This document shows positions 19,440-46,899 of a stretch of 64,000 nucleotides of DNA, piece after piece. Source of the DNA: Trileptium ribeirensis (lineage: Eukaryota > Nematoda > Enoplea > Enoplida > Thoracostomopsidae); contig JASANE010026831.1 of NCBI GenBank assembly GCA_030248225.1, positions 81,641 through 145,640 on the forward strand, given 5' to 3'. How positions within the stretch are numbered: position 1 is the stretch's first letter; each line of letters opens with the position of its first letter. The notes under the pieces were generated by a model that was not told the origin of the DNA, did no database searches, and saw nothing but the letters and a program-made list of their open reading frames with translations. Made by a program: the position numbers and the translations under genes.

Positions 19440-20725
19440 GAACCTGGTTTGTAGGGTAAATAATGACAATATCAGCAGATTTTCTGTTATATAGAAGATG
19501 CAATGACCTAAAAAAGAGACGAAAAGCGCACATAACTTGAACGGTTATGCGGGCAGATACTTACTGTATTTTGGATCTCATGGGCTCATTAAAAAGCACA
19601 TTTTGATCCAACTTGTAGCATGAATAATGACAATAGCAGAACACCCCTTGCAGCTATATAGAGGATGAAATGGTTTGCGAAATAGGACCAAAATCCATAT
19701 AGCTCTAGTGGTCGCGGAGATATTGCCGGTATCGTGTATTTGGGTCTATGGGTCCATTAAAAACCCATTTTACCTCAACCCTGCAGCCTAAATAATCACC
19801 ATAGCATCACATTTATGGCTACAAAGATTGTGAATTGCCTAACAAAATGGGATCAATAACACCCAAGTAGCTCGAGCGGTGGCGGAGATATTGCCGTTTT
19901 CGTGTATTTTGAGTCTAATGAGTTCATTTAACATTTCGTTTGATCCAACCCTGCAGCCTAAATTATGACATTAGCAGCACACCGCTTGAAGCTATAAATA
20001 AATTGCTCCACAAAATGAGATAAATAACACCCATATATCTCTAGTGGTTGGGAAGATGTTACTGTTTACTTATGTTTAAGGTCTCACGGGCCATTAAAAC
20101 GTATTTTAACCAAACATTGCAGCGTGAACAATAGCAGATTTACAGTATATAGAGGATGAATAGTGCCATACATTAGGACCAATAACACCCATATAGCTCG
20201 AGGTATTTCCGTTTTCATGTATTTTGGGTCTTATGAGCTGATTTAGAAACATCTAGCGTAAGTAATGAAAACTGTAACAAATCTGAGGATGAGTTACCCT
20301 ATAAAACGGGACCAATAGCACTCATATAGCACTAGCGGTTGAGTGCGATATTGTTGTTTTCGTGTACTTTGGGTCTCATTGGCCCATTTGAAATACCTGT
20401 TTTGACACAACCCTGTAGCGTAAAAAATGGCAACATCAGCACTAAAATTCATATAGTGGATGAATTGCTCTGCAAAATAGGACTAACAACATCCATATAG
20501 CTCTTCCGGAAATTTAACGCTTTCATGCATTTTTGTCCCATGAGCCCGTTCAAAAATCCATTTTGATCCAATCCTGCAGCGTTAATACTGAAAATAGCTG
20601 CACACTATGTGCCGATATATAACTGAGGTTAATTTCTTCCACAAAATTAGGCCATTAACACCCATGTAGATCGCGCGATTGTGAAGATATTTCCGTTCCC
20701 GCGTATTTTGTGTCTCATGGCCCTT
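19440..20725. repeat. Old satellite, eight diverged units of ~145-175 bp
   Basis: The phrase GGGTCTCATGGGCCCATTAAA and variants recur near 19571, 19743, 19909, 20081, 20227, 20371, 20536 and 20711. Each is preceded by a GACCAATAACACCCATATAG-like segment and followed by GATCCAACCCTGCAGCCTAA-like sequence. Spacing ranges from about 144 to 175 bp. The divergence indicates an old array. Confidence 0.85.
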
Positions 20726-23623: not shown

Positions 23624-23644
23624 ACATGAAAAGGGTATAAAAGG
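23624..23644 (+). promoter_or_regulatory. Promoter motif upstream of polB
   Basis: ACATGAAAAGGG is followed directly by TATAAAAGG (23636-23644). The polymerase start codon follows at 23678, 54 nt after the motif start, the longest spacing of the set. Confidence 0.65.
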
Positions 23645-23677
23645 CTGTGTAATTCCAAAATTGTCAATGAGTTTGAT

Positions 23678-26600
23678 ATGGCGCTCATTTCTGAACTGCT
23701 TGGTTTTATGCTCTCGTTGCTTTCAAGACCACTTCGTGGGTTTTTGGAAAGTTATCAAATTATATCACGTCGTCCTGTAGTGGACCCAGCTGTTTTCCTC
23801 AATCATAGCAGACGACAGCTGGAGGATGCAATCAAAGAACGACTTTCTACATGGAACGGTCTCAAGGCATACGTTGGAAAGAAGGTTACTTTTGAAAAGG
23901 ATATGGATCCTGATGCGACAATCAGTGCAAATTTCTCTGGTAAACTACAGCAGAATCTCAATTTTTCAACCGTCAATCAACATACATCAATAATTTTCGA
24001 TGATATTTTAAAGAACATTGACACCTTTGTCCAGCGTGGATCCGGATGGATTGTCAAACACGTGGATCACATCGACCTGCACCTGGCTCGTTACGTTGGA
24101 TTACGAGGGGCTACCTACAAGCCTCTCCCTAAAGCAATTCAGTCGAAAAAGGCGGTGATCAACGTTCAAAACCAGGACAACAGGTGTTCCAATGGGCTGT
24201 ATTATCGGCTTTGTACCCAGTTGATAATAATGCTGATCGTCAATCGAAATACGAGCAATATGCAGACTCAATTTCCAAGGCATCAACTTCCCAGTACAAG
24301 GCGGTGATATCTGCAAATTTGAGAAACTAAACACTATTGGGGTTAGTGTAATATCTTGTGACGAAGGCAAGCTAATACCTCTTCGTATATACGAGGGATC
24401 GTATGAGCGAGTGGTTAATCTGCTTCTCTATAAAGGACATTATTGTTGGATCAAAGATTTGGATCGTTTGCTCCATAGACAACGAGGATATCAACACAAG
24501 TTATTTTTCTGTCAACGATGTCTCCTTCCTCAATATTCACAACCAAAGCTAGATTTCCATACGGAAATGTGTAAAAACAATGAATATACCCGAATAACAT
24601 TCCCCAAAGACGACATGCTTCAATTCCGAAACACCCATAAAATGCTTCGAGCTCCGTACACCATCTATGCTGATTTTGAAAAGCTTCTTCTCCCAATCGA
24701 GTCTTGTCAACCCAACCCCTCTACTTCATACACCGAAGCTTATCAAAAATATCAAGTGTGGGGCTATGAAATGATTGATATTTTTCAATGCTGTGGAGAG
24801 GATACAAAAGAAATGGAGAAACCCGTGGTATATCGCGGTAAAGACTGCATCAAAAACTTTTTACTCAATGTAATTGAATTGGGTAACAAGTATCAAGAGC
24901 GTGTCACTAACCCAATTTCGATGGAAATGAATAAAAACGATTGGTTTCACCATCACTACACTAAAGACTGCTTCATCTGTGGTCAACCTCTTTTATATGA
25001 TCGCGTCAGAGATCACTGTCACCTGTGCGGTCGGTATCGCGGTGATGTCCACAATGAATGTAACATTAGCTACAAAATCAACCGTGATGTCAACATATTT
25101 TTCCACAACCTACGAAAGTACGACGGACATCTTATCATGCAAGACATTGGAAAGCTGACCAATCAACTGAAAATGAAGCTTGACTGTATACCCAAGGGTG
25201 CTGAAGGATTATTTGTCCTTCAGTATCAAACTACAACACCAGATTGCGGAACAACAGCAACCCCGAACAACATATGATCCAAACGGATACCTCGCCCATC
25301 TCTTTGCTATCCACGATTCAATGCAACCAAATATTCAACCCCATCTGGAAATTGATGAAGACGAACTTTCTGATGTAATTGATCTCGATCAACTTGGAGA
25401 GGGCGAAGACAGTGAAATGGAGGATAATGAACTTTTGGATAATGATGTGGTGGAGGATAAGACAGCTGTTGAGGATTCTGCAAAACTTAAGAAATATACG
25501 TGGTCCCTTAAATTTAAAGACAGTTTACAATTTTTACCGTCTTCTCTTCAGGCGTTGGTTGATAATTTGAAAAAAGATGGTAATTTTCCAGCAATGCAGG
25601 AGGAATTTGGTAATCTAACGGAATTAATGTTGAAAAAGGGTGTATACCCTTATGATTATATGGATAGTTGGGAACGTTTTGATGAGGTACAACTCCCTCC
25701 GGTTACAGCGTTCTATAATAAACTAAATGATCAAGGTATAACTGAAGACGATTACAATTTTGTAAAAACAGTTTGGAATGAACTTGATTTAGAGAACATG
25801 GGTCAGTACCATGATCTCTATGTGATGACTGATGTTTTATTGTTATGTGACGTATTTGAAAGTTTTAGAAATTTTGCTATTGATAATTATAAGTTGGACC
25901 CGGTACATTATATAACACTCCCAAGTTTTGGATGGGATGCTTGTTTAAAGTTGACAGGCGTGCGGTTACAATTGCTGAAAGACTCTAATATGTACATGTT
26001 TTTTGAACATGGCATACGAGGAGGTATTTCAATGATTTCACACCACTATGCCAAAGCCAACAACAGGCATCTTGAAAATTTTGACCCAAGTAAGGAGTCT
26101 AATTATATAATGTACTTGGATGCTAATAACCTATATGGATGGACTATGGTTCAGAAGTTACCCGTAGATGGATTTAAATGGGTTGAGGAAAATCGTTTGG
26201 CAAAAATAGATTGGGAGACTGATTGTGAGATTGGCTATGTGCTTGAGGTTGATCTGGAATATCCAGAATACTTACACACATTACACAGTGATTACCCCCT
26301 CGCTCCAGAGTCTATGAAAATTGAAGACTCAATATTGTCTCCCTATTGCCTCCAGGTCAAAGAGGATTTCAGAATGAAATATACCCCCATCAGAAAACTT
26401 GTTCCAAATTTAAATAATAAGACTAGATATATTGTACATGCCAGAAATTTAAAGCTCTATACTGAGTTGGGTCTCAAGGTCACCAAAATACACAGGGCCG
26501 TTCAGTTTAATCAAACTGAGTGGATGAAACCTTATATTTTGTTCAATACTGAGAAGAGGAAGGGAGCTAAAAGTGATTTTGAAAAGGATTTATTTAAACT

Positions 26601-27371
26601 TTTGAACAATGCAGTATTTGGGAAAACTATGGAAAATGTGCGGGCGTATAAAAATATTGAGCTTGTCAATTGTCCTAAACGGTTTGAGAAATTGATAGCA
26701 AGTCCCCGATATACTGGGTCTACAATTTTTGATGAAAATTTGGTGGCAGTTTCAATGAAAAACCCAGTGTTTGTTTATGCAAACCAATTTACGTGGGTTT
26801 TACGGTACTTGAGCTTTCCAAAATGTTAATGTACGAGTTCCACTATAACTATATCAAGAACAGATACATCTGTCAGCTTTTGTTTACCGATACTGACAGT
26901 CTCTGTTATGATATACGTGCGGAAGATGTGTACAATGACATGATGGCTGATCAGAACCTTTTTGATACAAGTGATTACCCCACTGACCACTTTTTACATT
27001 CAACCAAAAACAAAAAGGTTTTGGGTAAAATGAAAGATGAAACTGCTGGGATTCCTATTGAAGAGTTTTGCGGATTGAAACCAAAAATGTACTCCTTGAA
27101 ATGCGGAGGTGTTGTGAAAAAGAGAGCAAAGGGAGTTAAAAAACAAACCCTCAAAAAAGCTATACATATGGATGATTACATACAGACTCTCAGGAATATC
27201 ACTAGGCTAAGACATTTAATGAAAAAGATTTCAAACAATAAACATCAACTGTATACGGTTGAGCAGAATAAGATTAGTTTGAGCGCTTATGACGATAAGA
27301 GATATATTTTACTGGATGGGGTAACTTCTCTTCCATACGGACATTTTGATATTATGGATTGTTCTGATTGA
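23678..27371 (+). pseudogene. Polinton protein-primed DNA polymerase B, frameshifted
   Basis: Family B polymerase of the protein-primed type that replicates Polintons. The N-terminal region (23678-24300) precedes an exonuclease domain with YADFEKL (about 24664, ExoI) and FFHNLRKYDGH (about 25100, ExoII). Between them is a zinc-binding segment typical of Polinton polymerases (CFICGQPL, RDHCHLCG, HNECN). The polymerase domain has motif A as YLDANNLYGW (about 26113), motif B as LLNNAVFGK (about 26600) and motif C as FTDTDS (about 26884). The reading frame changes near 24188, 24275, 25190 and 26790, each explained by a one-base gain or loss. A ~90-residue acidic insert interrupts the exonuclease domain after YLSFSI. 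The start at 23678 follows the promoter motif and TATA box. This copy cannot make a full enzyme. Confidence 0.93.
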
Positions 27372-27456
27372 TATTTATACTTTGTATTTATATAAGTATT
27401 TTGTTGTAGTTATATACTGTATTTATAATAAAATTAAAAAAAAATTAGCACGAAAT

Positions 27457-27486
27457 ACATGAAAAGGATGCACATCCTATATTTTA
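27457..27486 (+). promoter_or_regulatory. Promoter motif upstream of the 27496 gene
   Basis: ACATGAAAAGG at 27457, then TATATTTTA at 27478-27486. ATG follows at 27496, 39 nt after the motif start. The motif comes just after the polymerase AATAAA at 27427. Confidence 0.75.
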
Positions 27487-27495
27487 CAAGTTAAT

Positions 27496-28356
27496 ATGGC
27501 TAACAAATCTGTTTCGATTTCTGAATTTGTGGAGCAAGAACCCGAAATATATCAGAAGCAGCAAAACTTTTGTGGCAAAAGAAACATTTTGAGAAAAGTT
27601 ATTGCAATAGTCGTTACCCTGCTTACAACAATCGCAATAGAGACCGGTCTTCTGGTTAACAAGCATGAAACGAAATCATGTGTTGAAGGAATATCACTCA
27701 ATAGAACGTTATGTTTCGAAGATTGGACAAAGCCTCGAATTGAATCTTGGTTTCCTGCTCGTGGTTACAACATTCATTGGGTCATTCGAGCGAGTGATAA
27801 TCTACAATTTGAGATAATACTTCACCCTCCTCGTTCCATCAAACTGTGGAGTGAAAAAGTCGTCTATCTATTTGATGTATCTGAACATCTATTTCGAAGG
27901 TTTGTGGTACCGTATAAGAATCTCCTCGTGCTGATTCAAACAGACATTCATACAAGGGATTTTATTTAACAAATTGCAACTCGGAATACTCATTCATCGC
28001 GAAATTGTCAACCTTCAATCCGCAACGGGTCTTTGAAAAACGACTGTTTAGAGTAAACACTAGAAATGCTGACCTATTCCTATCACACGCAAACGAAACA
28101 TTTGGAGTATGAAAATAGCAATACGTCTTGGTTTGTTGTGACGGAAAAATCGAGACAACGGATGATTGAAAAATGTTTGACTGAATTTGATTATATAAAG
28201 TATATTGGAAACAATGAATATATAATGGAGAAACAATTTGATGATATTGTTGGTATTGTTATGCCAAGTGGTATGCTAACGCGTACAGTGAGGATTGTGT
28301 ATGATATTTATAAAGATAAAATTGTAACCAATTACCCAATAAACATGAAAAGATAA
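27496..28356 (+). pseudogene. Unidentified Polinton gene, frameshifted
   Basis: I do not recognise this product. The first open part (27496-27969) has a hydrophobic stretch around residues 34-52 (VIAIVVTLLTTIAIE) that could span a membrane. Coding-like sequence continues in another frame from about 27950 to 28070 (NPQRVFEKRLFRVNTRNADL) and then in 28066-28356, which ends in NMKR and a stop. This looks like one gene of about 285 codons broken by at least two frameshifts, although two adjacent genes are possible. Its own promoter motif precedes it, and no such motif lies inside it, which favours a single unit. It could be a minor structural protein or the missing protease position, but no catalytic motif is visible. 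Confidence 0.5.
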
Positions 28357-28375
28357 TAGCATCTTGTATATATTA
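28343..28375 (+). promoter_or_regulatory. Promoter motif upstream of the integrase
   Basis: ACATGAAAAG at 28343 overlaps the last codons of the previous gene. TATATATTA follows at 28367-28375, and the integrase ATG is at 28379, 36 nt after the motif start. Confidence 0.72.
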
Positions 28376-28378
28376 ATC

Positions 28379-29425
28379 ATGAAGCTGGAAAATTTATATT
28401 ACAACTTGAAAAGCCCTGCCGTCTTTTCAGGGATAAACAAACTATTGCAACATGCTAAGAATATGGTTATTCCAAGCGGCAAGTTAAAGAGTGGCTACAA
28501 GGTCAGGATACATATACACTTCATAAACCCAAACGGAAGAGGTTTCGAAGGGTTAAAACAATAACAGAGGATCTCAATGATTTATGGCAAGCTGATCTTG
28601 CAGATATGACACGATTGTCTAGATATAATGATGGCAACAAATATCTACTAGTAGTTATAGATGTGCTGTCTAAATTTGTCAGAGTTGCTCCCTTAAAGTC
28701 TAAAAACTCAAAATTAGTATGCGAAGCCTTAGAAACCACGTTTCGCATTAACCGTCCAAATCATATTTTCTCGGATCGTGGCGCTGAATTTACAAATATC
28801 ACCTTCAAAAATCTCTGTCAAAGGTACGAAATAATTTGCTACATTGCTCAGCATGTTGAAACCAAGGCTGCAGTTGCGGAAATATGCATCCGTACTTTGC
28901 AATCCAAATATATCGATACCTTACCAAACACAATACGTATCGCTATATCGACATTTTACAAGACATTGTTGATAACCACAATCACACAAAGAATCGTTAT
29001 GGTTTCCGTCCAGTGGATGTAACCGTTGAAAATGAATCTGATATTTTAAACATTTTGTACCCTCCTCGAGGACACAGAGTTCTTTCATACAAGTTTAAGC
29101 TTAATGATTCTGTAAGAGTTGCAAGTGCACAATTTATCTTCGACAATGGATACAAACCTCAATGGTCTCAAAAGGTATTTTATATTTCAAGACGAATACA
29201 TTCAGATCCTCCTCGTTATAAAATTAGCGATTACGGAAATGAAGATATCTTGGGAAGATGGTACGAGCAGGAGCTTCAAAAGGTGCGTGTAGGGGATACC
29301 TTTAAGATTGAAAAAATATTGCGAAAACGTAGAACGAAAGATGGTACTCGTCAATATTTAGTAATCCTGGATATCCTGAAAAATTCAACAGCTGGGTGGA
29401 TGAGCAAGACATGAAAAGAGTATGA
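28379..29425 (+). pseudogene. Polinton integrase (DDE, with chromodomain), frameshifted
   Basis: Retroviral-superfamily integrase that inserts the element. The core catalytic residues are visible: D in WQADLADM (28592), D in FSDRGAEF (28774) and E in AAVAEI (28879), with exactly 35 residues between the last two, the D,D35E pattern. The N-terminal part starts at 28379 (MKLENLYYNLKSP). The C-terminus carries a chromodomain-like segment (FKIEKILRKRRTKDG, then GYPEKFNSWVDEQD). Frame changes lie near 28480, 28900 and 29355. In the restored frame the gene would end at 29425, sharing GTATGA with a possible ATG for the next gene. Polinton and Ginger integrases commonly end in a chromodomain, which may guide target choice. 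Confidence 0.9.
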
Positions 29426-29446
29426 CCGGCTTATCAAGTTTAAAAA
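29409..29446 (+). promoter_or_regulatory. Promoter motif upstream of the ATPase
   Basis: ACATGAAAAG at 29409 lies within the end of the integrase gene. TTTAAAAA is at 29439-29446, and the preferred ATPase ATG is at 29446, 37 nt after the motif start. This spacing favours 29446 over the earlier ATG at 29422. Confidence 0.7.
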
Positions 29447-30062
29447 TGGAGTCAATACCGTTAGAAGTACCGTTTACCTGTATTGTGTCGGGTGCAACAG
29501 GAGTAGGGAAAACTCATCTTGTGGCTCAACTGTTGCGTAAAAATCTATTTGATAAGTAATTTGAAAAGGTTGTTTGGTGTTATGGAATGATGCAACCTAT
29601 GTATCATCAATTGTCAGAGGAAATGGATAATTTAACGTTTGAAGAAGGATTCCCGACCTTTGTTGGAAGAAATGAAGGACAAACACTCTACATTCTTGAT
29701 TATTTAATGGAATACTCAAATGACAAAACATTAGCGAACATTTTACCCGAATGCGACATGCAAATATTAGTACCATATTTATAGTGCAAAACTTTTATCA
29801 TTCTGGAAAATACATGTCAGAAATTTCCAGAAACGCTCAGTATTTATTTCTGTTTCCAAATCCTCGTTCGAAATCAATGATTGCAACATTAGGAAGACAA
29901 ATGTGGCCTCATAAGCCCAACTTTTTATCTACGGCGTTTGAAATGGCAACCAATGGGAAGCCATACAGCTATCTGATGATTGATCTCAAGTCTAATGCAC
30001 CTGAGGATTTACAAGTTAGGGAAAATATTTTTGATCAAACTGGAGTATACAAACCGACATGA
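29446..30062 (+). pseudogene. Polinton genome-packaging ATPase (FtsK/HerA, A32-like), broken
   Basis: This ATPase would pump DNA into capsids. The Walker A motif GATGVGKT is at about 29488, and the Walker B-like LYILDYLM is at about 29690, where the family usually has two acidic residues (LDD); the second is Tyr here. A downstream TIFIVQNFYHSGKYM segment and a GRQMWP segment fit Polinton ATPases. The length of about 205 codons is within the usual range. An in-frame TAA lies at 29557-29559, and a frame change occurs near 29750. The end at 30062 overlaps the next promoter motif (ACA TGA). Confidence 0.87.
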
Positions 30063-30092
30063 AAAAACACGTTATCGTGATATCTATAAAAG
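30057..30092 (+). promoter_or_regulatory. Promoter motif upstream of the 30095 gene
   Basis: ACATGAAAAAA at 30057 contains the ATPase stop codon. TATAAAAG follows at 30085-30092, with ATG at 30095, 38 nt after the motif start. Confidence 0.7.
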
Positions 30093-30094
30093 AT

Positions 30095-30380
30095 ATGGAA
30101 CGTCATTCCGCAACAATATCTCTGTCCTGTGCCTTGCTTAAAACTGACAAGAAATGTGTTAAAAAATTTTATGAAGTCTGCCCTCGTATCGGTAATCAAG
30201 TCTTTGAGTGAAATTTGTTATAATATTTTATATGGAAACATTCCTCTTACTGAGCAGCAGATTAAGCTGCTACGCAAGCAACGTTCTACAATTTACAAAC
30301 TATCGGCTTTGAAGTTGTCTGATAACACGAAAAGACAACATGTTACAATGGATCTTTTAAAAACATTAATTGCAGTATGA
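30095..30380 (+). pseudogene. Small conserved Polinton ORF after the ATPase, one frameshift
   Basis: About 95 codons. The first part reads MERHSATISLSCALLKTD, and the rest, after a frame change near 30170, has EICYNILYGNIPLTEQQIK and a Lys/Arg-rich end (LLRKQRSTIYKLS). A small basic protein with an N-(I/V)L-GN-PL core followed by a basic region is a common partner of the ATPase in Polintons and adintoviruses; its role is not established. The stop overlaps the ATG of the next gene (ATGA at 30377). Confidence 0.6.
30325..30334 (+). promoter_or_regulatory. Variant promoter motif upstream of the 30377 gene
   Basis: ACACGAAAAG differs from ACATGAAAAG by one base and lies 52 nt before the ATG at 30377, inside the previous gene. 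Spacing and mismatch make it less certain than the others. Confidence 0.4.
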
Positions 30381-30784
30381 CCAAGCGATATCTGCTAGTG
30401 GCTCCCAGCTGGTTAGAGAAACAAACTCAAACTAATGGAGAACCAGTGAAAGTAGGCGTAGATACACTTTAGTACAAGCCAAAGGAAGATATTTCAAGTC
30501 TATTTTTCAAGCGCCTACAGTCCAAGGTCAAACTCCTTTCCAGTCATTTGAAAACCGTAAAGCAAGATGCAAACAATCGTTTTGAGTATAATGACGGAAC
30601 TGTCGGATCAACACTTTACGATATAGTAAAGTATTTGGTAACCGACAGCGGAAAATTTTCAGCTCCCCGTCCAATAGACATTGACCAATTTCGAACAGAG
30701 TATATGCAGGGGGTACCGATTGGGGCTCTAGGGAGAGGCAAGGAAGTACATGAAAAAAGTATCGACTGGAATCGTTTATATTGA
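30377..30784 (+). pseudogene. Unidentified Polinton protein with one in-frame stop
   Basis: 135 codons in one frame, interrupted by TAG at 30470-30472. It starts MTKRYLLVAPSWLEKQ and later has GSTLYDIVKYLV and PRPIDIDQFRTEYMQ. A short protein with a G-S-x-L-x-D-x-V-x-x-L segment followed by a Pro-rich, Phe-containing region is found in many Polintons, but I cannot name its function. Its ATG overlaps the stop of the preceding gene, so the two may be co-transcribed. Confidence 0.55.
30748..30782 (+). promoter_or_regulatory. Promoter motif upstream of the NADAR gene
   Basis: ACATGAAAAAA at 30748 lies inside the end of the previous gene. TTTATATT is at 30775-30782, and ATG follows at 30790, 42 nt after the motif start. 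Confidence 0.68.
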
Positions 30785-30789
30785 ACAAT

Positions 30790-31329
30790 ATGTCAACATC
30801 AACTACATTCAAGATTTGTGAATCGAAAGACGGTCGAGCCTTGGCGCTATTTGCTACAGGCTACTGTCCGTTGAGCAACGTACATGTCGCTGACTTCAAA
30901 GTAGGTGATATGACGTATAGTAGTATTCAGCAATATTATGAATCGGAAATGGCGAATTACTTCAACTGCTATGAAGCAAGATATGAAATACTGATGGAAC
31001 GATCTCCCAAGAAGATAATAAATATTGGGAAAAATTTAAAATTTTACGATCAACCAGAATGGGACAAGGTCAAGTATGACGTCGTACTTAAAGCAATGGA
31101 GGCTAAAGCCAGTGAACATAACCCCACCCACGACCTGTTCATGTCTACAAAAAATGCTGTGATTGCAGAGGCAAGTAAATTTGGTAACGGGATTGGACTA
31201 TATATAGAAGACGCAAACGTCAACGACATCAGTCTTTGGACTAAAGAAAACTGGTACGGTCGTCTTTGGATGTCAGTTCGCTATGGACTTCAAAATAACC
31301 AACTTAGTGGTAAAGACTACAGCCAGTAA
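30790..31329 (+). CDS. NADAR-domain (YbiA/DUF1768-like) protein
   Basis: Intact 179-codon gene. The sequence follows the NADAR family (PF08719): a Y-x-PLSN start segment (GYCPLSNVHVADF), a TYSSIQQYYESEMA segment in the place of the usual S-x-E-x-x-Y-x-x-x-KA, then IGKNLKF, STKNAVIAEASKFGN, GIGLYI and W-x-x-x-NWYGRLWMSVR, which matches the W-G-x-N-x-LG-x-x-LM-x-VR end of the family. The conserved Glu of the IVEAS segment is kept (AEAS); the usual E before the YY pair is Gln and the Trp before GIGL is absent. NADAR proteins are linked to ADP-ribose or NAD metabolites, and some remove ADP-ribose from guanine bases. Its 3' end overlaps the TBP-like gene by 47 nt. Unlike its large neighbours it is uninterrupted. 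Confidence 0.82.
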   Translation: MSTSTTFKICESKDGRALALFATGYCPLSNVHVADFKVGDMTYSSIQQYYESEMANYFNCYEARYEILMERSPKKIINIGKNLKFYDQPEWDKVKYDVVLKAMEAKASEHNPTHDLFMSTKNAVIAEASKFGNGIGLYIEDANVNDISLWTKENWYGRLWMSVRYGLQNNQLSGKDYSQ

Positions 31330-31763
31330 TAACATTAACTTGCTAGAACTCAGTAGTGTTCTACAGCGATTACGATACAACCCACGACGTTTTCGCGCTA
31401 GTTGTCAAGCGGAAGTGTGATGGTATGGCCAAATGGCAAACTATTGTTTCTGGCATACAAATCAATGGATGACTTGCGTTCGGATGCGAAGATTTTTAAG
31501 AAAATTTTGAAAAACTTTGGATACTGGACTGATGAATTTGAAATTTGTTCAGTAACTGGTGTGTGTAAATGTAATGCTGCTATCGATTGTATGAAAAGCT
31601 GAGAGGCGATTACACTATACCGGAATTATTTCCAAGTTTGAGTTTTAGACATAAGAGTGGGGCATTGTCCGTCTTTAGAACAGGGAAAATTGTAATAACA
31701 GGTGTAAAGTCTCTTGGTAATATGTATGATATTGTAAACGATATATGTAAATTAATTTTTTGA
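31283..31763 (+). pseudogene. TBP-like (TATA-binding protein fold) gene, frameshifted
   Basis: The product looks like a small TATA-box-binding protein made of the two TBP repeats and little else. The N-terminus begins MDFKITNLVVKTTA and leads to RLRYNPRRFRA, matching the I-x-N-(I/V)-V-x-T and YNP-x-RF of TBP repeat 1. This is followed by GSVMVWPNGKLLFLAYKS and an IFKKILKNFGY helix, as in the F-SGK-V-TGAKS and IIQKIGF of TBP. Repeat 2 has FEICSVTGVCKCN, then ELFPSLSFRH, SVFRTGKIVITGVKS and a final helix, again in TBP order. The frame changes near 31400 and near 31590 (one base missing). The total of about 160 codons equals a bare TBP core. The ATG at 31283 overlaps the NADAR gene by 47 nt. I infer a role in transcription of the element's own genes. 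Confidence 0.82.
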
Positions 31764-31789
31764 AATAAAGAGAAAAAAACAACAGCACT

Positions 31790-31819
31790 ACATGAAAAGG
31801 CTATAATGCTATTTATAAA
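31790..31819 (+). promoter_or_regulatory. Promoter motif upstream of the 31828 gene
   Basis: ACATGAAAAGG at 31790, then TATTTATAAA at 31810-31819, with ATG at 31828, 38 nt after the motif start. It lies in an intergenic gap just after an AAATAAAG sequence at 31764. Confidence 0.78.
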
Positions 31820-31827
31820 CAGCTTAA

Positions 31828-32172
31828 ATGGAGATTATTGTTGTGAGAAAGTTAAATGATTTGACAGTACAGCTTCCTGTACCAATTGAAGCTGATTACG
31901 TCCTTGTGATGGGTTACAAGTTATTTGGATCCATAGATAAAAATAAAATGCCTTACATGATAAAGGCAAATTTTATTGAACCTAAAATTTTAAATTGTGG
32001 TTTTACAGAAACCCTTTGTGTTTTAACTGGACAAAAAGTGGACACTTGCTCCAAATTGAAGAATAAATTTACTTCAGACCTAGTTTTTGAGGTTACTGAC
32101 AACGCAGGAAACAGACTTTCCTCGCTTGCGGATAAATTTTTGTACTTACATTTAAAGTTTATAAAAACATGA
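31828..32172 (+). CDS. Small beta-rich Polinton protein, possible minor capsid-type
   Basis: Intact 114-codon frame. It begins MEIIVVRKLNDLTVQLPVP and ends SDLVFEVTDNAGNRL with an LYLHLKF strand before the stop. The D-x-x-G-x-x turn followed by a terminal L-x-L-x-F strand resembles the end of small jelly-roll proteins in Polintons, but the match is by feel only. At 114 residues it is short for a penton protein. The stop codon TGA is part of the next promoter motif. The frame is free of breaks. Confidence 0.55.
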   Translation: MEIIVVRKLNDLTVQLPVPIEADYVLVMGYKLFGSIDKNKMPYMIKANFIEPKILNCGFTETLCVLTGQKVDTCSKLKNKFTSDLVFEVTDNAGNRLSSLADKFLYLHLKFIKT

Positions 32173-32200
32173 AAAGGATTTCAGTCTGTTAATATTTAAA
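32167..32200 (+). promoter_or_regulatory. Promoter motif upstream of the 32204 gene
   Basis: ACATGAAAAGG at 32167 includes the stop of the preceding gene. AATATTTAAAA begins at 32191, and ATG is at 32204, 37 nt after the motif start. Confidence 0.75.
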
Positions 32201-32203
32201 ACA

Positions 32204-32362
32204 ATGTCTATTAGTGTGAAAATCAACCCAGTTTTCCAGGGACAGAGACAAAAACCCAAGCGCAAGAATCTGAAACCTAAGCGAAAATCCCTCAAAACTA
32301 GGAGAAAAACTTTAAAGCGTAAAGTTGTTACACAAACGGTTAAAAACATGAAAAGAAATTGA
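32204..32362 (+). CDS. 52-aa highly basic protein, possible DNA-condensing core protein
   Basis: MSISVKINPVFQGQR leads into a run dominated by Lys and Arg (PKRKNLKPKRKSLKTRRK) and ends NMKRN. It has almost no acidic residues. Small basic proteins of this kind condense the genome in adenoviruses and related virus-like elements, so a core or packaging role is plausible. The frame is intact, has its own promoter motif, lies directly before the capsid gene, and its end overlaps the capsid promoter motif. Confidence 0.7.
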   Translation: MSISVKINPVFQGQRQKPKRKNLKPKRKSLKTRRKTLKRKVVTQTVKNMKRN

Positions 32363-32375
32363 GACATTTAAAATC
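32346..32375 (+). promoter_or_regulatory. Promoter motif upstream of the capsid gene
   Basis: ACATGAAAAG at 32346, overlapping the end of the basic-protein gene. ATTTAAAAT follows near 32367, and ATG is at 32393, 47 nt after the motif start. Confidence 0.68.
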
Positions 32376-32392
32376 TAAGAAAATTTTCTAAT

Positions 32393-33703
32393 ATGGAAAA
32401 CAGCAACCTTGACTGGAGTCGAAAGCCTCGACAACAAAATGAGATTGAAAGCTGTCAGCTTGTCGAGTTTACCAGTGTCAGCGGACAACAGATTGAGGAT
32501 GCTGCAACACCACTGGAATTTAAGATTCCAAAGTCCGACTACTTGGTGGATATGAATCAGCTGTTTCTCAAATTCAAAGTAAAGCTGATCACTAAATCGG
32601 AAGCTCAAACACCCAAAGCCCCAGCCAACAAGTCACCTCCAAAGAAACGAAATAAAAGACAAACCCTTGCAGTTGTACCTTGTAATCAATTTGGTTATGC
32701 AGTATTTAGTCAAGTTGACGTCAAAATCAACAATGAAATTATAACATCAAACCAAGCAAACTATCCTTGGATGACCTATATCTTAAACCTTTTACATTAC
32801 TCAAGGGAAGAGCGAGACTATCATCTTCGTACTGCTCTTTGGTTTCAAGATAGTGCTTATTCTATGGATAGTTTCGAAGACAATGAAGGTGCTACAGCTA
32901 GACAAGCGTACTTTTTCAACAGTGATGAGTAAACATTATACCTACCAGCGGTAACTTCGGTTATATTCAATGGCGGATATCTACCACCACAGACGGATGT
33001 ATCGTTGAAATTTGCTAGAAGTGCTCTAACACAAATTGTTCAAGCAAAAGACAATGCTCAATGTAATATGATCATCAGCGAACCGATACTCAGAGCAAGT
33101 CTCTTGAAGCTAAAAAGTGGTCCTCTAGATTACTATGATAAGATATAATGATCGAAGGGTGCTCTCTACCCCTGCGTGACGTATGAGCTGCGAACATTTG
33201 GTTTAGGGAAAGATAATCAAAACTTTGACTATACGGTGTTTGAGGACGACCTACCTCGAAGGATATTTGTGTGGATGGTGTCAAAAGACACTTATGATGG
33301 AAACGTAAGCAAGAATATCTACAATCTAAAGCTTCCGGAGATGTCAAAGTTTCAAGTGCTTGTTAATAATCTAACTTTACCTGGACAAACACCGCTTGTT
33401 GTTAACACAAAAAGCTGTCCTGAGGTTTATGCAAGTCTGTTACATGGACTAAACTATCGGAACCGGGATCTCGGCTTCTCTCCTATCGACATGTTTGGAG
33501 GGTTTGGGATATTTGTTGTGGACGTGTCTCCAGATCATTCAAGCAGTTGCGGCAACTATGTTTCGAAAGTGAAGGATGGCAATCTTAGGTTGATAATGGA
33601 CTTTGCAAAAACTCTAAACGAATCTATGGTTCTATTTGTGATGGGTGAATTTACGAAGACTTTGAAGATGAGTAAAGATGATAATAAAATTGAATGGATT
33701 TAA
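32393..33703 (+). pseudogene. Polinton capsid protein (F54H12.2-like) with in-frame stops
   Basis: A 436-codon frame matching the Polinton protein often annotated as F54H12.2-like, taken to be a jelly-roll capsid protein. N-terminal PLEFKIPKSDYLVDMNQLFL matches the I-P-x-S-x-DYLDL-x-x-x-YL segment of the family. VFSQVDVKINNEII matches the LFSQVDV-x-LN segment, and PRRIFVWMV and GNLRLIMDFA match the later P-R-I-x-x-x-MV and GNLRLE-x-x-FA segments. The whole gene stays in one frame, but stop codons occur at 32930 (TAA) and at about 33147 (TAA TGA). A Lys/Pro-rich insert (TPKAPANKSPPKKRNKRQ) sits between two expected strands. It would form the shell with the ATPase-packaged genome. AATAAA follows at 33737. 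Confidence 0.85.
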
Positions 33704-33759
33704 TGTTTGTGTTTAAATGTGTTGTTGAATTTATATAATAAAAAACCAAAAAAAATTGC

Positions 33760-33797
33760 ACATGAAAAGGATTTGTACATGATTTTAGGTATTCAAT
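33760..33797 (+). promoter_or_regulatory. Promoter motif upstream of the 33798 gene
   Basis: ACATGAAAAGG at 33760 with ATG at 33798, 38 nt after the motif start. The AT-rich part (GATTTTAGGTATTCAAT) is weaker than in other copies. Confidence 0.72.
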
Positions 33798-33974
33798 ATG
33801 GATACCATACGAAATTTTTTCTCAAAGCGAAAGCGTGAGGAAGAACAAATTCGTGAGCTGAAACGACAGATTGGTGTACTACGCGAGCAGGAGGCTCTGG
33901 GAATGGACGTACCGGATACATTCCCACCCTCTGTGGAATTGAGGGAACTGCTGCGGAAACGTCGAAAGAAGTAA
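33798..33974 (+). CDS. 58-aa coiled-coil basic protein
   Basis: Intact frame reading MDTIRNFFSKRKREEEQ, then an amphipathic heptad-like stretch (IRELKRQIGVLREQEALG), PDTFPPS and a basic end (LLRKRRKK). The function is not recognised. A short coiled coil with basic ends near the capsid gene would fit a scaffold or minor virion protein. It is the last gene I can support in the Polinton. Confidence 0.6.
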   Translation: MDTIRNFFSKRKREEEQIRELKRQIGVLREQEALGMDVPDTFPPSVELRELLRKRRKK

Positions 33975-33999: not shown

Positions 34000-36086
34000 G
34001 GGATGGTAAAACATCCCGCACATTATCTTTGATTAAATGCTCAGTAATAATACTATGGGTGTATAGGTTGCTTGTTTGGAAACCAACTGACAGTTGCATC
34101 TTAGATGGCAGGTTACCGGCTCGAAGTGTCTACCGTAACACGTTGCCAACAGAGCAGGCAATCGTATCAGTTGGATTGGTACAAGCAACAAAAAAGGGTG
34201 GTAATCCTAGCGCTAATCCAGCATACCTAATGCCAGACGCTAAAAAACGCGTTCCGCTATTTTACGTCCCAGGTGGGACGTGAGGATAATGCCGTATGTG
34301 TTGAGAATGACAGATCATCTGGGCACATGGTGGAAAGAAATGACAACCCATCTCTGTATTATCCATTTGGTAGCATCACCTCTGCAGTGTTTATGTATTT
34401 TTTTTGTTTGACATTGTATGGCATAGTATTGCGTTACAGGATTTGCTCACTTTTACAAAAAGCATCTTATAAGTACACCCTGCATTCGCCGGTCAACCAG
34501 GTCTGATCAGAAGCACGGGTGCACTGTATGTCAGTCAGACCCAGTCAACGCAGAGGTACATGTGTCCTGCATTGTCAGCCAACATGTCAGCGCAGTGACA
34601 CTATAAGAAGCAATCTGTAAAAGATTGCAAGTCCTGTAAGGCAAGACTCTGCCATAAAATGTCTTATAGGCCAGACTCAGCCTCTTCAACGTCGTCTTCG
34701 TCGTGTGGATTGAAACAAACTTTGATGAAAACTGACACTGACAGTCTTCTTTTATAATGCTCAAAACGCTCGAGGTAAATACTTTGAAAGAATGTTTAAT
34801 TTTGACAAACTTTTGATCCATTAGCAAAATTTTGTGAAAATTTCAGTTGAAAGTTTCGTTAAAATTGTAATTTCACACCTGGTTGCAACTTTTATGCCAA
34901 TGGCAAAGTCAAAAATCGATTAAAAATACATTAGCTACGCTTCAGTGCAAAAAGCTCGCTAATCACCATCTCAAAAACCGATTAAAATGATTGAGCCTAA
35001 TTGCCTAACTTTTTGATTGACAAAATTTGCCTAATTACCAAGTCAAAAACCCACTAAAAATCCATTAGTGACTATAATTAAAAATTAAGAGCTAGCGGCA
35101 ACTTTTAAGGTGAAGTTTTTGCCAAACTTCATACCAAACACCTTAATTATAAATAAAATCTGACCATCTGTATATAAATATATATAATTAAACATATAAA
35201 TGGATGTATTTATGTTAAAACGATTACAAATTATGATATAACATCATATGGAAAAATTAACTTCATTTCTGTGCAAGTCATAATGTTTAAATTTGAACTT
35301 GAAACTTACGCTAGTTACGTTTTATCCAAAATAATTATTACATATTGATAAATATAGTTGCATGGCAAGAAGACGTACACATTCATTTTAGTGTTGCATC
35401 GATGCATAAGTGCTATCTTTCGTAATTATTGTTCAATTTTTATTTATCAATTGTTTATGATAAAGCCTTGAAGAAAAATGTGACGCTTATGTCAAACTAC
35501 GTTATGTTCTCTGTGGAACGACGCGGTCTGGATTTGCGTCATTTACTTCGCTTTTAAGGGAGACTAGTTTGCTCAGTTATATCCTGTGCCCACTTTTCGT
35601 GCTATCCTGTCCAACTTTGTACGAGACATTGTAGAAAACGGTCTAATTTACTCAAATAGGATTTTGAGAAAAAAGTGCAAAGATGATTTTGAAGTTTGAG
35701 ACGAAGTTGAATGCCTACACCCGAACCCCCAAACCTAAATCCTACGCCAAAGTGTGGAGCCTGCGTCTAAGTCCAGCCTATTCAAGCTAATTACTCAGCA
35801 AAAATTTTATACAGATGAGACGATACGGATACTAATTTTTTCTATTTATTGCCGTATTGCGTTACATATATTTTAGCTGTTAAATCATTTTTTTCTTTAA
35901 CTATTAATCACAAAATTATTACTAAACTATAATAAGAAATTATATATTAAAACATAAATATTAAAAAAATTATTTATTTATTAATTTAACGTAACTTAAA
36001 GCGAATCAGAAAGAAAAAAACTTTTTTTACTCTTACACCAACGATAGAAGTGAGTCAAACATTTGTGCATAGACATATTATATTAA
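34000..36086. other. Polinton right flank, no gene supported
   Basis: An imperfect inverted repeat (34410-34474 with 34598-34663) is described separately. Around 34912-35065 the phrase GATTAAAAATACATTAG and variants recur about three times. From 35100 to 36086 the sequence is very AT-rich. The 96-residue frame at 33993-34283 shows no family motif. Confidence 0.4.
34410..34663. repeat. Imperfect inverted repeat (65-bp arms)
   Basis: GACATTGTATGGCATAGT at 34410 and downstream TTACAGGATTTGC and CTTTTACA are matched in reverse by 34598-34663 (GACATTTTATGGCAGAGT, TTACAGGACTTGC and CTTTTACA on the minus strand). The arms are about 80 percent alike and separated by ~120 bp. This may be a MITE or the remains of a Polinton terminal structure. 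Confidence 0.75.
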
Positions 36087-36907
36087 TGTAACGTGCCGGG
36101 TGTACAGGTCTGTGACAGACGCGCCCGTCCGCTCTAGCAACCGAGCACATCCGAATTGTTCGATCTGGTCGAGTAACAAACGCACCCGTCCGCGAAAGCA
36201 AACGAGTATGTCCGCAGAGCAAGTTTGTTTTGTTGCCGATAGCGCAGCCTCCACCCGTCCGCTGTAGCAGCCGGGTATGCAGTCCGCAAAGGCCAGTGTA
36301 CGCTCAGCAGCCGAGGTACGTCCGCCAGGCAGCCGCACTCCGTCCGCAGTTGAAAAACCAACAAAGGTCTACCGAGCAATAAGCAAACTTCAACTCGACT
36401 TTACGCCAAGGAAGTCCAGCCAACCGTTCTCCTAAATCCTGTTCGTTAGTGTCAATTAGCTTTAGCTACCACTGTGAAACCCAAATGTCCTAGTTGTTGC
36501 TGTCTGAGTGCTGTGGTAATAACACAAATCAAACCAACAGCAGCCGATGGTGGAATACCAGCCGCGACGGTATAATACAAGCAGAACTAGCGAACAACAG
36601 AAATTGACTTTATTATAGCAACTAAATCACGAGGCATAAAACTATAAGACTGCTCTCAACCCAAAAGATTCCAGTTTATATACAGTTGCAAATACCGACG
36701 CCAACACAGATTTTGCTTCATTTCATCTCTGTAAAACACAAAATGTTAGAACCGAAAAACTGAATCTTGCAGAATATTTCAAAACTAAAGTTCTATAGAC
36801 AAAACAAAAACAATCTTGTATTTTAAAGTTTTTTAAATGAAAAGATTTACATGATGACATTTCATATCTCTACATTACATCAACGCCAGGGAATGTTCCT
36901 CGTTACA
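36087..36907 (-). repeat. Ty3/gypsy LTR, copy A
   Basis: On the minus strand it begins TGTAACGAGG at 36907 and ends CGTTACA at 36087, so the LTR has TG...CA ends inside a 7-bp inverted repeat TGTAACG/CGTTACA. It contains several GTCCGC / GCGGACGGG repeats. It corresponds to 45943-46672 but is about 90 bp longer, mostly from extra GTCCGC-bearing sequence. Confidence 0.75.
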
Positions 36908-36947
36908 TTCGTCCCTCAAACGGCAAGTATGGCCCCCATACTTAAGA

Positions 36948-38189
36948 TCATCGTTGCCACTGTTTCGCAGTTGGTCCTTTACCCCAGTAACGTTGCGAAT
37001 GTCTTCGTTCAGCACCAGAACCACGCTTCTTCTTTCGTTTCTGTCGTAAACCGCCTTCCATTGCCGCACCTGCCTGGGATGTTGCAGAATCACAACTATG
37101 TTGATTCAGGCTAATGCTGTTCAGTGTATTTGTTTCTGATAAACGATGTGAAGTAACTTTATCATTAATTGTTACATTCGATAGTCCCGTAATAGCATAT
37201 CTTTTTGTCGCAAACGCTGACGATTTGTCGTTCAGTACCGCCGCTTGCGCTCTTTTCTTTGCCGCCTTTTCTTCGATCGCAAACCTAGGTAACGGTAATA
37301 GCGCAGCAGACTTACCAGTTCGAGGGTCCGACGTAGACGAGTCAGTAGTAGTGCCATACTTTTCACTGGGTATAACGTAAGGCACTTTGACAATGCCTTT
37401 GCCTCTTGGCCCTACTTTCGGTAACGGCGAAACCTCATTCCTGTGCGTTGCGTCGTTACTTCCGTTTTCTGTTGTGTTGACAGCGTTTACTTTCATGAGC
37501 TCAGCATCGCGATATCCAAAAGCATCCGGTGATCTACAGTAAGAACGCAACCGTTTCGTTTCGGTAAGTTTGAAATTAGTAATTGGATCATATTCAGAAT
37601 CTTGAGACATCGGAGGTAGCGTTGGCGGAACCAGACGTGAATTCGACCATTTACGCCCGAACTCTGGTTGCCAACTGTTGTGCACACTTCGAGAAGCACC
37701 ATTAGTTCCCGGAACCATATTTCCATTAGACCGTTTCTGTTGAAGTGGAGACCAATATGACTCATGCCAGTGGCTGTCTCGTTGCCAATTTGGACGAAAA
37801 CGTTTCTTCTGCGTTCCCAAATTTATAGAATTATTGTCTTCTCTGTGGATACGTTTCGCCGATTTGCATTTTGGATTGAGATCAAGTACCTCGGGATCTG
37901 CTGAATAATTGAATTTTGCCAATTTGCATTCCATGTTGCACTTAGGTTTATTCGATTTCGGTATTTTAATTATCTTCGTACATGTCATTGTTTCCACTTG
38001 GCGACGCACAATAACTGCATGCTGTTGGCATTCTGGACGAGATACATAATAGTCACCGCCGAAATTGTAACCAAGACCATCAAACGCGCGGAAACAGGAA
38101 AAATCTGGTCTTAGTTGGCGACCACCAAGCGAAAAATCGTTTCCATCGATTAATTCTATTGTTGGTACTTCACCTAATTCGTCGTCCAT
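36948..38189 (-). CDS. Gypsy third ORF, copy A (413 aa), unknown function
   Basis: This intact frame lies between pol and the 3' LTR and begins MDDELGEVPTIELIDGND. It has SLGGRQLRPDFSCFRAF near the N-terminus, a QKKRFRPNWQRD segment, Pro-rich PPTLPPMSQD and a strongly basic end (RQKRKKKRGSG, then RHSQRYWGK). I see no signal peptide, membrane segment or zinc knuckle, so it does not look like a classical Env or Gag, although it sits where Env would be. The copy B version is nearly identical. The C-terminus joins directly to the LTR region here because about 610 bp present in copy B is missing. Confidence 0.75.
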   Translation of the reverse strand: MDDELGEVPTIELIDGNDFSLGGRQLRPDFSCFRAFDGLGYNFGGDYYVSRPECQQHAVIVRRQVETMTCTKIIKIPKSNKPKCNMECKLAKFNYSADPEVLDLNPKCKSAKRIHREDNNSINLGTQKKRFRPNWQRDSHWHESYWSPLQQKRSNGNMVPGTNGASRSVHNSWQPEFGRKWSNSRLVPPTLPPMSQDSEYDPITNFKLTETKRLRSYCRSPDAFGYRDAELMKVNAVNTTENGSNDATHRNEVSPLPKVGPRGKGIVKVPYVIPSEKYGTTTDSSTSDPRTGKSAALLPLPRFAIEEKAAKKRAQAAVLNDKSSAFATKRYAITGLSNVTINDKVTSHRLSETNTLNSISLNQHSCDSATSQAGAAMEGGLRQKRKKKRGSGAERRHSQRYWGKGPTAKQWQR

Positions 38190-38362
38190 CTCGGCTGATA
38201 AAGTACAATATTTGATTATACCGGGTATGCAGTAGTGTTACTAATATAATTGCACGTATATCACATATGCTAAAATTAATATTACTTCAATATATAATAC
38301 ACTATATAGATACATAAATTTAAATTTCTTATTTTAAAAGTGAGTCTACTTTGACCAATTTG

Positions 38363-40450
38363 CTACATTTTCTTACACTGCCTGGGCCGCAAATTGTATT
38401 GATGACGTATACTTGAATCCGTATAAGCCTTTACCCTAAGTCTTCCTACTTGACGAGTTCTGTAGCGCACTCTGTTCTCACCGTCATGCAGTGATTGTTT
38501 ACCTACTCTATAGAGATTATGTCTCGGATTCCCTCGCTTTTTTCTTACAGTTCCTGTATTTCGTTGTAGTGTAATTTGGTCTGGTGGCACAAGCGTTTCA
38601 TTTTCTGCAATATCGTCACTGTGAATCAATCCGCTTCCCTTAGTACCGATATTTTGGCCCCCTGCTTCCTCTAACTGCTGCATTTTCCCATCAAGCCAGT
38701 TTCCGCTAAAACCAGCTGGTGGGCCAAACTTAAGCCGTCTCACGTTAACGCGTTTAGTTACAGAACGACGCTTGTAATTTCTAAAACCCTGTAGGGTCCC
38801 CTCCAGCGCCTTGCAAGTTTCTTAGACTTCCCTTGAACCGTTGGCACATGAAGGTACACCTGGTCGCCTTCCAAAAATGGTAACGAACACATTTTCTTAT
38901 CATGCTGCCTTTTCTGTTCAGATTGCGATTTGGCGATACAAATACGTGCAGTTTCCCATGCTGTTGTCATCTTATCACTTAGATCCGAAATATAATCACC
39001 CACGTTACCAACATTATCCCTTACCACCAGGTCCAGAGGTAGAACCGGATCTCGACCGAAGTTCAAGCAATACGGTGTTTCTCCAGTTGACTCATGTACA
39101 CTACTTCTGTACACAAAACAAACATATGGCAGAATTTCGTCCCAATTGTCTTGGTTTGTGTTGACATACAGACTGACCATCGTTTCCATCGTACGATTAA
39201 ATCGCTCTACCATGCCGTCACATGCCGGATGATAAGCCGTAGTATTTAATTTCTTGACTCCTAACAATTTACAAACGTCCATCATTAGTTCTGACACTAA
39301 ATTCGGACCCAGATCAGTCAGAAAACATGTCGGCACGCCGAATCGACATACAAGTTGCTCAACAAATATCTTAGCGATCGTTGTGGATTTTGTGTCCGCT
39401 GTGGGAAAACATTCCACCCATTTCGTAAAATAGTCCATGAATACCACCACGTATTTATTGCCAGATTTCGTACATGGCAAAGGCCCTACTATGTCGCAAG
39501 CCACTTGGTACCATGGTGATACAACTGCTATCGGATGAAGTGGTGGTTTTGTCCATTTTTGTGGATTCTTTCGCGTGGCACATGCCTCACAACTTGCACA
39601 CCATTTCTTTACGTCTGTGTACATCGTTGGCCAATAGTAGCGCTCTGAAACCTTTCGAAACGTTTTACGCACTCCTAGATGACCACCAAAAAGATGGTCG
39701 TGACTCGCATTCATAACTTGTTCGCGTAATTTTGGTGGAGTGTAACATTGCAATTGTCCGCGAACAGGGCTTTTGCGGTACAGAAGTCCATTCCTAATGC
39801 TCATTGAGGTGTCGCTTGGTTCACTACCAGATTCTAATTGTACCATCAGCTCAGATACTGTATTATCATCTCTCTGCTCTTTAATCCACATTTCTATTTG
39901 ATCGCTTCCTTCATCTCCATATGGTATCAAATCGGTTATTACTGTAACAGTATTTTCGTTGAACTTCGCTTGCTTTAAAATTTCTGTACATGACTGGCAA
40001 ATTTCATTCTCGCCAAGACTGGGAGCATCGTGAGTTTCAGGAAGTCGTGATAACGCGTCTGCATTCTTGTTTTCTTTGCCTGATTTGTAGATGATACTCA
40101 CGTCATACGCTTGTAACATCAAGCTCCATCGACACAAACGGCCATGTGGATCTTTCACTGTCAATAACCACTTTAACGGTTGATGATCTGTAACCACCGA
40201 AAACGATCGACCATAGAGATATGGTTGGTAGTGACGTATTGCCCACACGACTGCCAAAGTTTCACGTTCGATTACTGGATAACGTCTTTCCGCTTTGCTT
40301 AGCATACGGCTTGCATAGGACAGAGGATGATCTTTGTTATTATCATCCAACTGGCTCAACACAGCTCCAATCGCAAAATCACTGGCGTCGATTTGAAGCA
40401 CGAACGGTTTTGAAAAGTCGGGAAACGCTAACACCGGTTCTTGTAGCGTC
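38363..40450 (-). pseudogene. Ty3/gypsy pol, copy A, 5'-truncated (RNase H and integrase)
   Basis: Minus-strand remains of a gypsy polyprotein. It starts abruptly at EPVLAFPDFSKPF (about 40440) in the RNase H region, so reverse transcriptase, protease and Gag are absent. RNase H shows IDASDFAIGAVLSQ and VTDHQPLKWL. The integrase zinc finger has HDHLFGGH and CASCEACA; the catalytic core has ACDIVGPLP, LTDLGPN (family usually TDxG) and ACDGMVERFNRT. A GPYR (GPY/F) segment follows. Near 38760 the frame breaks, and about 15 residues present in copy B are missing; the rest continues at 38743-38363. Upstream of 40450 the sequence switches to copy B on the other strand. Confidence 0.88.
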
Positions 40451-40459
40451 GTTTCAGCC

Positions 40460-43882: not shown

Positions 43883-44055
43883 CAAATTGGTCAAGGTAGA
43901 TTCACTTTTAAAATAAGAAATTTAAATTTATGTATCTATATAGTGTATTATATATTGAAGTAATACTAATTTTAGCATATGTGATATACGTGCAATTACA
44001 TTAATAACACTACTGCATACCCGGCATAATCAAATATTGTACTTTATCAGCCGAG

Positions 44056-46672: not shown

Positions 46673-46899
46673 TATATATAAATCGAATTTAGGCACCTCT
46701 CGATATAACGAAGTCCGTACAATTGTTTTGCACCTATATCAAAAATACTACTGCATAAGTCATAAAGCCGCGGAAAGCTTCAAGCATAGTTTTGAATTCA
46801 CAAATAATAACAACCCCAGACTAACTACCATGCATGGTAGCTATGTAACCAGAACCAGAAAATAAAATAAGATGCAGAGTAATTTTTTACGCTGGAAAA

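Follow-up and report, generated by a model that had tools for sequence, protein, structure and literature searches.

A stretch of 64,000 nucleotides from the nematode Trileptium ribeirensis (contig JASANE010026831.1, 81,641–145,640, here called the window; positions are given within it unless another stretch is named) contains a 10.4-kb element of the Polinton/Maverick (adintovirus-like) type between 23600 and 34000. With related elements as a guide, its genes are in the order PolB, G2, G3, integrase, ATPase, G6, G7, NADAR, TBP (a TATA-binding protein), G10, ARG, capsid-like gene and G13. PolB, G2, the integrase, the ATPase, G6, G7, TBP and the capsid-like gene are broken in the window copy – most of its genes – which marks it as a decayed element. 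A nine-base motif, ACATGAAAA, lies shortly before nearly all of these genes, and its identification as a promoter element of Polinton genes is strongly supported. The features are as follows.

23624..23633, + strand: motif ACATGAAAAG, 54 nt before the PolB ATG, with a canonical TATA box next to it
23636..23643, + strand: canonical TATA box TATAAAAG, adjoining the motif in the PolB promoter, as also in family A copies
23678..27371, + strand: PolB gene, broken here
27457..27466, + strand: motif, 39 nt before G2
27496..28112, + strand: G2 (unknown), broken here
28066..28356, + strand: G3 (unknown), overlapping the end of G2, without a motif
28343..28352, + strand: motif, 36 nt before the integrase gene
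28379..29414, + strand: rve integrase with C-terminal chromodomain, broken here; the window piece matches rve at 1.7e-10
29409..29418, + strand: motif, 37 nt before the ATPase gene
29446..30062, + strand: packaging-type ATPase, broken here, named from the intact copy in relative L042
30057..30066, + strand: motif ACATGAAAAA, 38 nt before G6
30095..30380, + strand: G6 (unknown), broken here
30325..30334, + strand: one-mismatch motif ACACGAAAAG, 52 nt before G7
30377..30784, + strand: G7 (unknown), broken here
30748..30757, + strand: motif ACATGAAAAA, 42 nt before the NADAR gene
30790..31329, + strand: NADAR-domain gene (Pfam PF08719, 1.5e-20)
31199..31207, + strand: TATATATAG, within the NADAR gene and 84 nt upstream of the TBP ATG; putative TBP promoter
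31283..31763, + strand: TBP-like gene, split into three frames here, without an upstream motif
31790..31799, + strand: motif, 38 nt before G10
31828..32172, + strand: G10 (unknown, 114 aa)
32167..32176, + strand: motif, 37 nt before ARG
32204..32362, + strand: ARG, a small Arg/Lys-rich protein
32346..32355, + strand: motif, 47 nt before the capsid-like gene
32393..33703, + strand: major-capsid-like gene, broken here
33760..33769, + strand: motif, 38 nt before G13
33798..33974, + strand: G13, the small last gene

The element was compared with relatives from the same genome – 16 stretches with PolB copies, none longer than 10 kb, and two shorter stretches with distant TBP genes, which sample family E by 4.0 kb (L049) and family F by 1.9 kb (L050). 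In the intact relative L042, the integrase matches the Pfam families rve (2.7e-13) and Chromo (2.2e-11), the integrase with C-terminal chromodomain that is expected of Polintons, and the ATPase matches Pox_A32 (2.2e-8), as expected of an A32/FtsK-like packaging ATPase. Both proteins are shared with adintoviruses and Polinton-Mavericks, and PolB resembles that of a PLV-like contig: the L042 protein is 45% identical (298 of 656 aligned residues) to a 1286-aa open reading frame (ORF) of IMG/VR contig L001, with the stretch LFTDTDS. Pfam gave only weak Endonuclease_7 matches for PolB and a PDB search gave no polymerase; from its resemblance we take it to be a protein-primed type B DNA polymerase. 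Likewise, major capsid protein is our presumptive name for the product of the capsid-like gene, its fold not being confirmed – the gene has no Pfam match, a PDB profile search found no capsid, and the model of the family E homologue is weak (pLDDT 45). Capsid-like queries of the protein database found one short ENA protein. In IMG/VR, PolB had relatives on two contigs, both without the motif, and capsid-like and TBP queries found none. A repeat search of 20–48 kb found no inverted repeat flanking the element. The nematode's own 687-Mb assembly has at least 86 PolB and at least 150 TBP-like matches, many with open frames, so this genome carries a heavy load of Polintons in several divergent families.

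There are ten exact copies of ACATGAAAA within the element, all on the + strand and none on the − strand; the other 53.6 kb of the window has none on the + strand and two on the − strand. It is the commonest 9-mer in the element, and motif discovery in the 70 nt upstream of the 13 gene starts ranked it first among exact 9-mers, at 10 of the 13 starts. The same test on random windows of the element gave a top 9-mer at no more than four (100 trials). A preliminary description of this DNA had put the chance expectation at 0.04, which is too low: Markov controls of order 1–4 on the element gave means of 0.27–1.41 copies (300 runs per order). Its conclusion that the motif is not due to chance still holds, since these controls never exceeded five copies and shuffling of the whole window gave 1.63 copies against 12 observed. 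The ten motif positions, all ten distances to the next ATG, the one-mismatch copy at 30325 (before the G7 ATG at 30377) and the restriction of the copies to the gene strand were all correct on recount. The reported overlap with the end of the preceding gene was found in six of nine cases.

The ten copies are identical over nine bases as a result of being selected by pattern. The next two positions are G in eight copies and A in two, then G in five and A in five, followed by a looser preference for T at position 12 (7 of 10) and position 14 (8 of 10). The preliminary description had also pointed to an AT-rich patch before the ATG. Such a patch exists, but not as a signal in its own right: the gene strand of the element has 6 TATA-box matches against 3.4 expected, and conservation between families does not extend to the right flank (identity 0.47 for A–B, ca. 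0.3 for A–C and B–C), so that a second promoter element was rejected here. The only clear extra TATA box in the window element is that of the PolB promoter. The PolB motif of families A and B is immediately followed by TATAAAAG or TATATAAG; in L033, L034 and L039 the sequence there is ACATCAAAAGGGTATATAAG. The possibility of a conserved protein motif was rejected as well, because the motif falls in different coding frames.

In the window the motif keeps its distance to the next ATG, with a standard deviation of 5.7 nt, whereas its distance from the previous stop codon ranges from −36 to +86 nt, with a standard deviation of 39 nt. This bears on the idea that the motif is a 3’-end signal of the upstream gene. 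Overlap with the end of the preceding gene would suit such a role, but the spacing follows the next ATG, and PolB, the first gene, has a motif although no gene is recognised before it on that strand. A 3’-end signal is therefore highly improbable, and was rejected.

The same signal is found throughout the related elements. AAAAG is common to all boxes, and the preceding four letters are CATG, CATA or NCTT. Counting the window and its relatives, 100 of 100 placeable starts in ten gene classes are preceded by the G or A form, exact in 82 cases and with no more than one mismatch in the others, at 34–58 nt from the ATG; among G7 starts, 8 of the 10 examined have an exact form. The count omits L049 and L050 (which have another box), matches starting after residue 5, and starts without an ATG within 12 nt or too near the end of the stretch; PolB of L035, L036, L037, L038 and L040 and G2 of L036 and L038, among others, are thereby dropped. 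L037 (64% PolB) has neither the motif nor recognisable downstream genes. At the starts of G3 and the TBP-like gene the motif was found in 0 of 19 cases. Control segments of equal size within genes had it in 14 of 99 cases, of which 3 are the next gene’s own motif and 11 are one site inside G2.

At promoters aligned on the motif, which are mostly noncoding, families A and B have left and right flank identities of 0.57 and 0.47 and a motif identity of 0.98 (6 genes), and families A and C have flank identities of 0.32 and 0.29 and a motif identity of 0.90 (3 genes; PolB had no fitting site and was left out). As the sites were picked by pattern, these motif identities arise partly by construction; the informative point of the A–C comparison is that the site exists though the flanks are near unrelated. 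The concern that related elements might lack any shared upstream motif is thus answered, with families A and C sharing it at ca. 30% flank identity.

Family C mostly has ACATAAAAAG: L036 has six copies on the + strand and none on the − strand (0.03 expected) plus one ACATGAAAAG, and L038 has four ACATAAAAAG sites and two ACATGAAAAG. Families E and F, in which gene order is the same where readable, have CTTAAAAG in place of the motif, at the same distance before starts. In L049 there are six copies on the + strand and none on the − strand (0.08 expected), five of them at 34–40 nt from the start codon that follows (taking the second ATG as that of G6), with a distance of 40 nt at G10. In L050 there are two on the + strand (0.02 expected) plus one CTTAAAAAG, and the three boxes are 38–43 nt before start codons. 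The spacing is therefore kept while the sequence differs. In short form, the boxes are CATGAAAA in the window family, CATAAAAA mostly in family C, and CTTAAAAG in families E and F; natural sites in these elements are CATGAAAAG, CATAAAAAG and CTTAAAAG, beside the canonical TATAAAAG. All boxes are 8–9 bp long and AT-rich, and resemble TATAAAAG with a changed 5’ half.

These families also bear on a role in translation. The inner ATG of the motif could start a short upstream ORF (MKR-stop), and in the window 7 of the 10 inner ATGs open ORFs of 3–7 codons, with one of 11 and two others of 23 and 50. However, there is no ATG at 6 of 7 sites in L036, at 4 of 6 in L038, or in the E and F boxes, and yet the place of the box is kept. 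A translation signal is thus largely contradicted by families C, E and F, where the inner ATG is mostly or wholly absent; it was rejected, and we give it hardly any credence. The promoter reading is favoured because position and strand follow the downstream start, the motif persists across diverged flanks, and distant families swap the sequence at the same distance. The earlier suggestion of a promoter-like motif is in this respect borne out.

A candidate reader of the boxes is encoded by the elements. Two pieces of the window TBP-like gene match TBP (E 1.9e-4 and 7.1e-9), and intact copies are found in relatives. One protein from each of families A, B, C, E and F scored 89–112 bits against Pfam TBP (cut-off 22.9), in two stretches each, and modelling predicts a plain two-lobe TBP with the saddle fold, 23–28% identical to TBP folds in fold alignments. 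Compared with the family A protein, those of families E and F show 33% and 30% identity, and TBP is under purifying selection. A query of the protein database with TBP found 761 proteins. Among the 120 listed, two ENA proteins (P0002 and P0003) have 54–56% identity, and may come from the same species as the source or a related one; the others listed have ca. 25–35% identity, many of them named as TBPs of plants, fungi and animals and many unnamed. The TBP tree comprises 31 hand-picked proteins from the 120 listed.

The C-terminal lobe of TBP contacts the 5’ half of the box. In this lobe, N159 is replaced by S and V161 by T in families A–C. Of the intercalating phenylalanines, F99, F190 and F207 are kept in these families and F116 is W; F190, which is also in the C-terminal lobe, is Y in family E and H in family F. 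T124, which like F116 is in the other lobe, is replaced in all five families, by M, L or V. In yeast TBP, DNA-binding null mutants have been reported at all these changed positions, via other substitutions (PMC2265533). TBP is thus changed at residues where a changed box might require it. General TBP contacts that are kept include N69, F99, F207 and T215, and the PE(L/M) stirrup, which we take to be the TFIIB contact, is kept as well, in keeping with host TFIIB and RNA polymerase II (Pol II) being used. No TFIIB was found in Pfam scans of Polinton genes, though several of these genes have no Pfam match at all.

We consider it likely that the motif and its variants are altered TATA boxes read by the element’s own TBP together with host Pol II. 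The motif would be the core promoter element at the TATA-box position of Polinton genes, with CATGAAAA, CATAAAAA and CTTAAAAG as TATA-like boxes altered in their 5’ half and the TBP homologue as their reader, probably recruiting host TFIIB and Pol II. Transcription would start ca. 30 nt downstream of the box, just ahead of the start codon, giving mRNAs with very short leaders. The canonical TATA box at PolB could allow host TBP to express this gene before any viral TBP exists. From sequence we infer the binding of TBP to the motif, the use of host Pol II, the position of the transcription start and the early/late order. The presence of the same signal before nearly every gene, together with the element’s own TBP, suggests a private on-switch within the host transcription machinery. 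A further proposal, to which we give slightly better than even chances, is that the small integrating Polintons of this host run private transcription systems, in which every lineage combines a TBP of its own with a TATA box rewritten in that lineage, co-diversified in at least three pairs (CATGAAAA, CATAAAAA and CTTAAAAG). An orthogonal promoter in the host nucleus would in that case need no more than a TBP of plain cellular type, with neither a viral polymerase nor a viral TFIIB.

Two other readers of the motif were weighed. It could be a weak TATA box for host TBP, or be read by another host factor, with the Polinton TBP acting otherwise, for instance as a competitor. CATAAAA-type boxes are functional in some cellular genes, and the kept general contacts of the Polinton TBPs would also accord with this. 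However, a G at the centre of the box suits cellular TBP badly, the motif is not enriched in the 53.6 kb of host flank, and the dominant motif forms differ between TBP clades within one host, which a single host factor does not easily explain; we regard a host reader as unlikely. The motif could also be read, virophage-style, by a large DNA virus infecting the same cell, through that virus’s transcription machinery. TGAAAA, present only in the G form, resembles the core of poxvirus early promoters, for which the vaccinia consensus is given as AAAANTGAAAA (PMC5294985), and the type-specific motifs of mavirus-like elements are thought to fit different giant viruses (PMC8547959). Against this, most sites in family C (ACATAAAAAG) and in families E and F (CTTAAAAG) have no TGAAAA core at unchanged spacing, and the element’s own TBP and integrase and the canonical TATA box at A and B PolB promoters point to nuclear Pol II. 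A co-infecting virus therefore seems quite improbable as the reader.

Several findings weigh against a box read by the element’s own TBP. The implied leaders of ca. 5–20 nt would be unusually short. The TBP gene itself has no motif in families A–C (0 of 10) or in the single F copy, and has a box in the single E copy. Families A–C have the same C-lobe changes and different commonest boxes, so there is no simple residue-to-base code. Nor is the match of motif to clade clean – beside the ACATGAAAAG sites of family C (one in L036, two in L038), there is one ACATAAAAAG each in L045 (family A) and L035 (family B), and both family C PolB promoters, outside the 100-start count, have a one-mismatch form only. 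In L049, the sixth CTTAAAAG copy is 100 nt from a gene, NADAR has no box, and the start of G6 is ambiguous, with ATGs at 14 and 35 nt from the box. In 11 of 12 copies the site inside G2 (L042 4833, L033 4927, L046 4868, window 27663) differs from the motif by no more than one base, and in the window by two; it precedes no recognised gene. All DNA data are from one genome, and the copies are related, so that the motif counts are not independent; the comparison between families is of more independent weight than counts of copies.

TATATATAG, a putative driver of TBP, is present in families A and B and changed in C, and the E copy has a CTTAAAAG box. Both G3 and TBP, the genes that lack a motif, begin before the preceding gene has ended. 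In L042, the overlaps of 4666–5283 with 5237–5527 and of 7970–8509 with 8463–8978 are 47 nt each and in the same relative frame, and the G2/G3 overlap in L033 is 53 nt. G3 and TBP may be translated from the mRNA of the upstream gene.

The nearest functional parallel to the Polinton TBP and its box is the viral TBP (vTBP) of herpesviruses (Epstein-Barr virus BcRF1, Kaposi’s sarcoma-associated herpesvirus ORF24, cytomegalovirus UL87). In beta- and gamma-herpesviruses it is described as reading a non-canonical TATT box at the TATA position with host Pol II (PMC4893493, PMC12529657). Herpesvirus vTBPs are reported to be ca. 10% identical to TBP and to act with five further viral proteins (PMC4893493), unlike the Polinton protein, a predicted plain two-lobe TBP whose boxes, CATGAAAA, CATAAAAA or CTTAAAAG, stand ahead of nearly all genes. 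TBP genes have been reported in 59% of mirusvirus genomes (PMC10132985), in CpV-BQ1 (PMC12085832) and in giant viruses, for which one survey describes a TFIIB-like gene in almost all TBP-bearing viruses and variable TFIIB contacts among viral TBPs (PMC7221094); these genomes, however, are many times larger than the Polintons here. TATA-binding proteins are also mentioned in algal viral elements without polymerase and double jelly-roll genes (PMC10675990). The EMALEs, which are mavirus-like virophages, are like these Polintons small integrating viruses, with type-dependent motifs before their genes (PMC8547959), but the EMALE motif is tied to a giant virus, whereas the Polinton carries its own candidate reader.

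In the literature on Polintons that was searched (including PMC8097293, PMC11071308, PMC11071296 and PMC10120064, and not covering the founding adintovirus paper), neither a TBP nor a motif at gene starts was found, in agreement with the earlier statement that no such promoter motif was described in Polintons; mavirus-like elements do have type-specific motifs, as reported in the source cited above for EMALEs (PMC8547959). As far as these searches show, there is no prior account of how Polinton genes are switched on.

Polintons are regarded as ancestors of many eukaryotic DNA viruses. A box and a single-chain TBP in divergent families of one genome offer a testable transcription mechanism for this group, and natural pairs of TBP and TATA box with possibly changed specificity could show how a highly conserved protein gains a new DNA target. 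If the proposed mechanism is true, herpesviruses would be joined by a second example of viral replacement of TBP together with a rewritten TATA box. The box could also serve as a simple sequence signature for Polinton promoters in other genomes.

A NADAR-domain gene is part of the Polintons in this genome (window 30790–31329; L042 7970–8506). Its ratio of non-synonymous to synonymous substitution rates is 0.03–0.04 between families A and B, below that of TBP, and 0.47 for the single C–C pair. Beyond the Polinton, the window has two copies of a retrotransposon at 36078–46681, named Gypsy-like by resemblance, which lie head to head as an inverted repeat of ca. 10.6 kb with long arms 92–97% complementary. 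At 20001–20675, a 44-nt unit is present in five diverged copies at a spacing of 133–171 nt.

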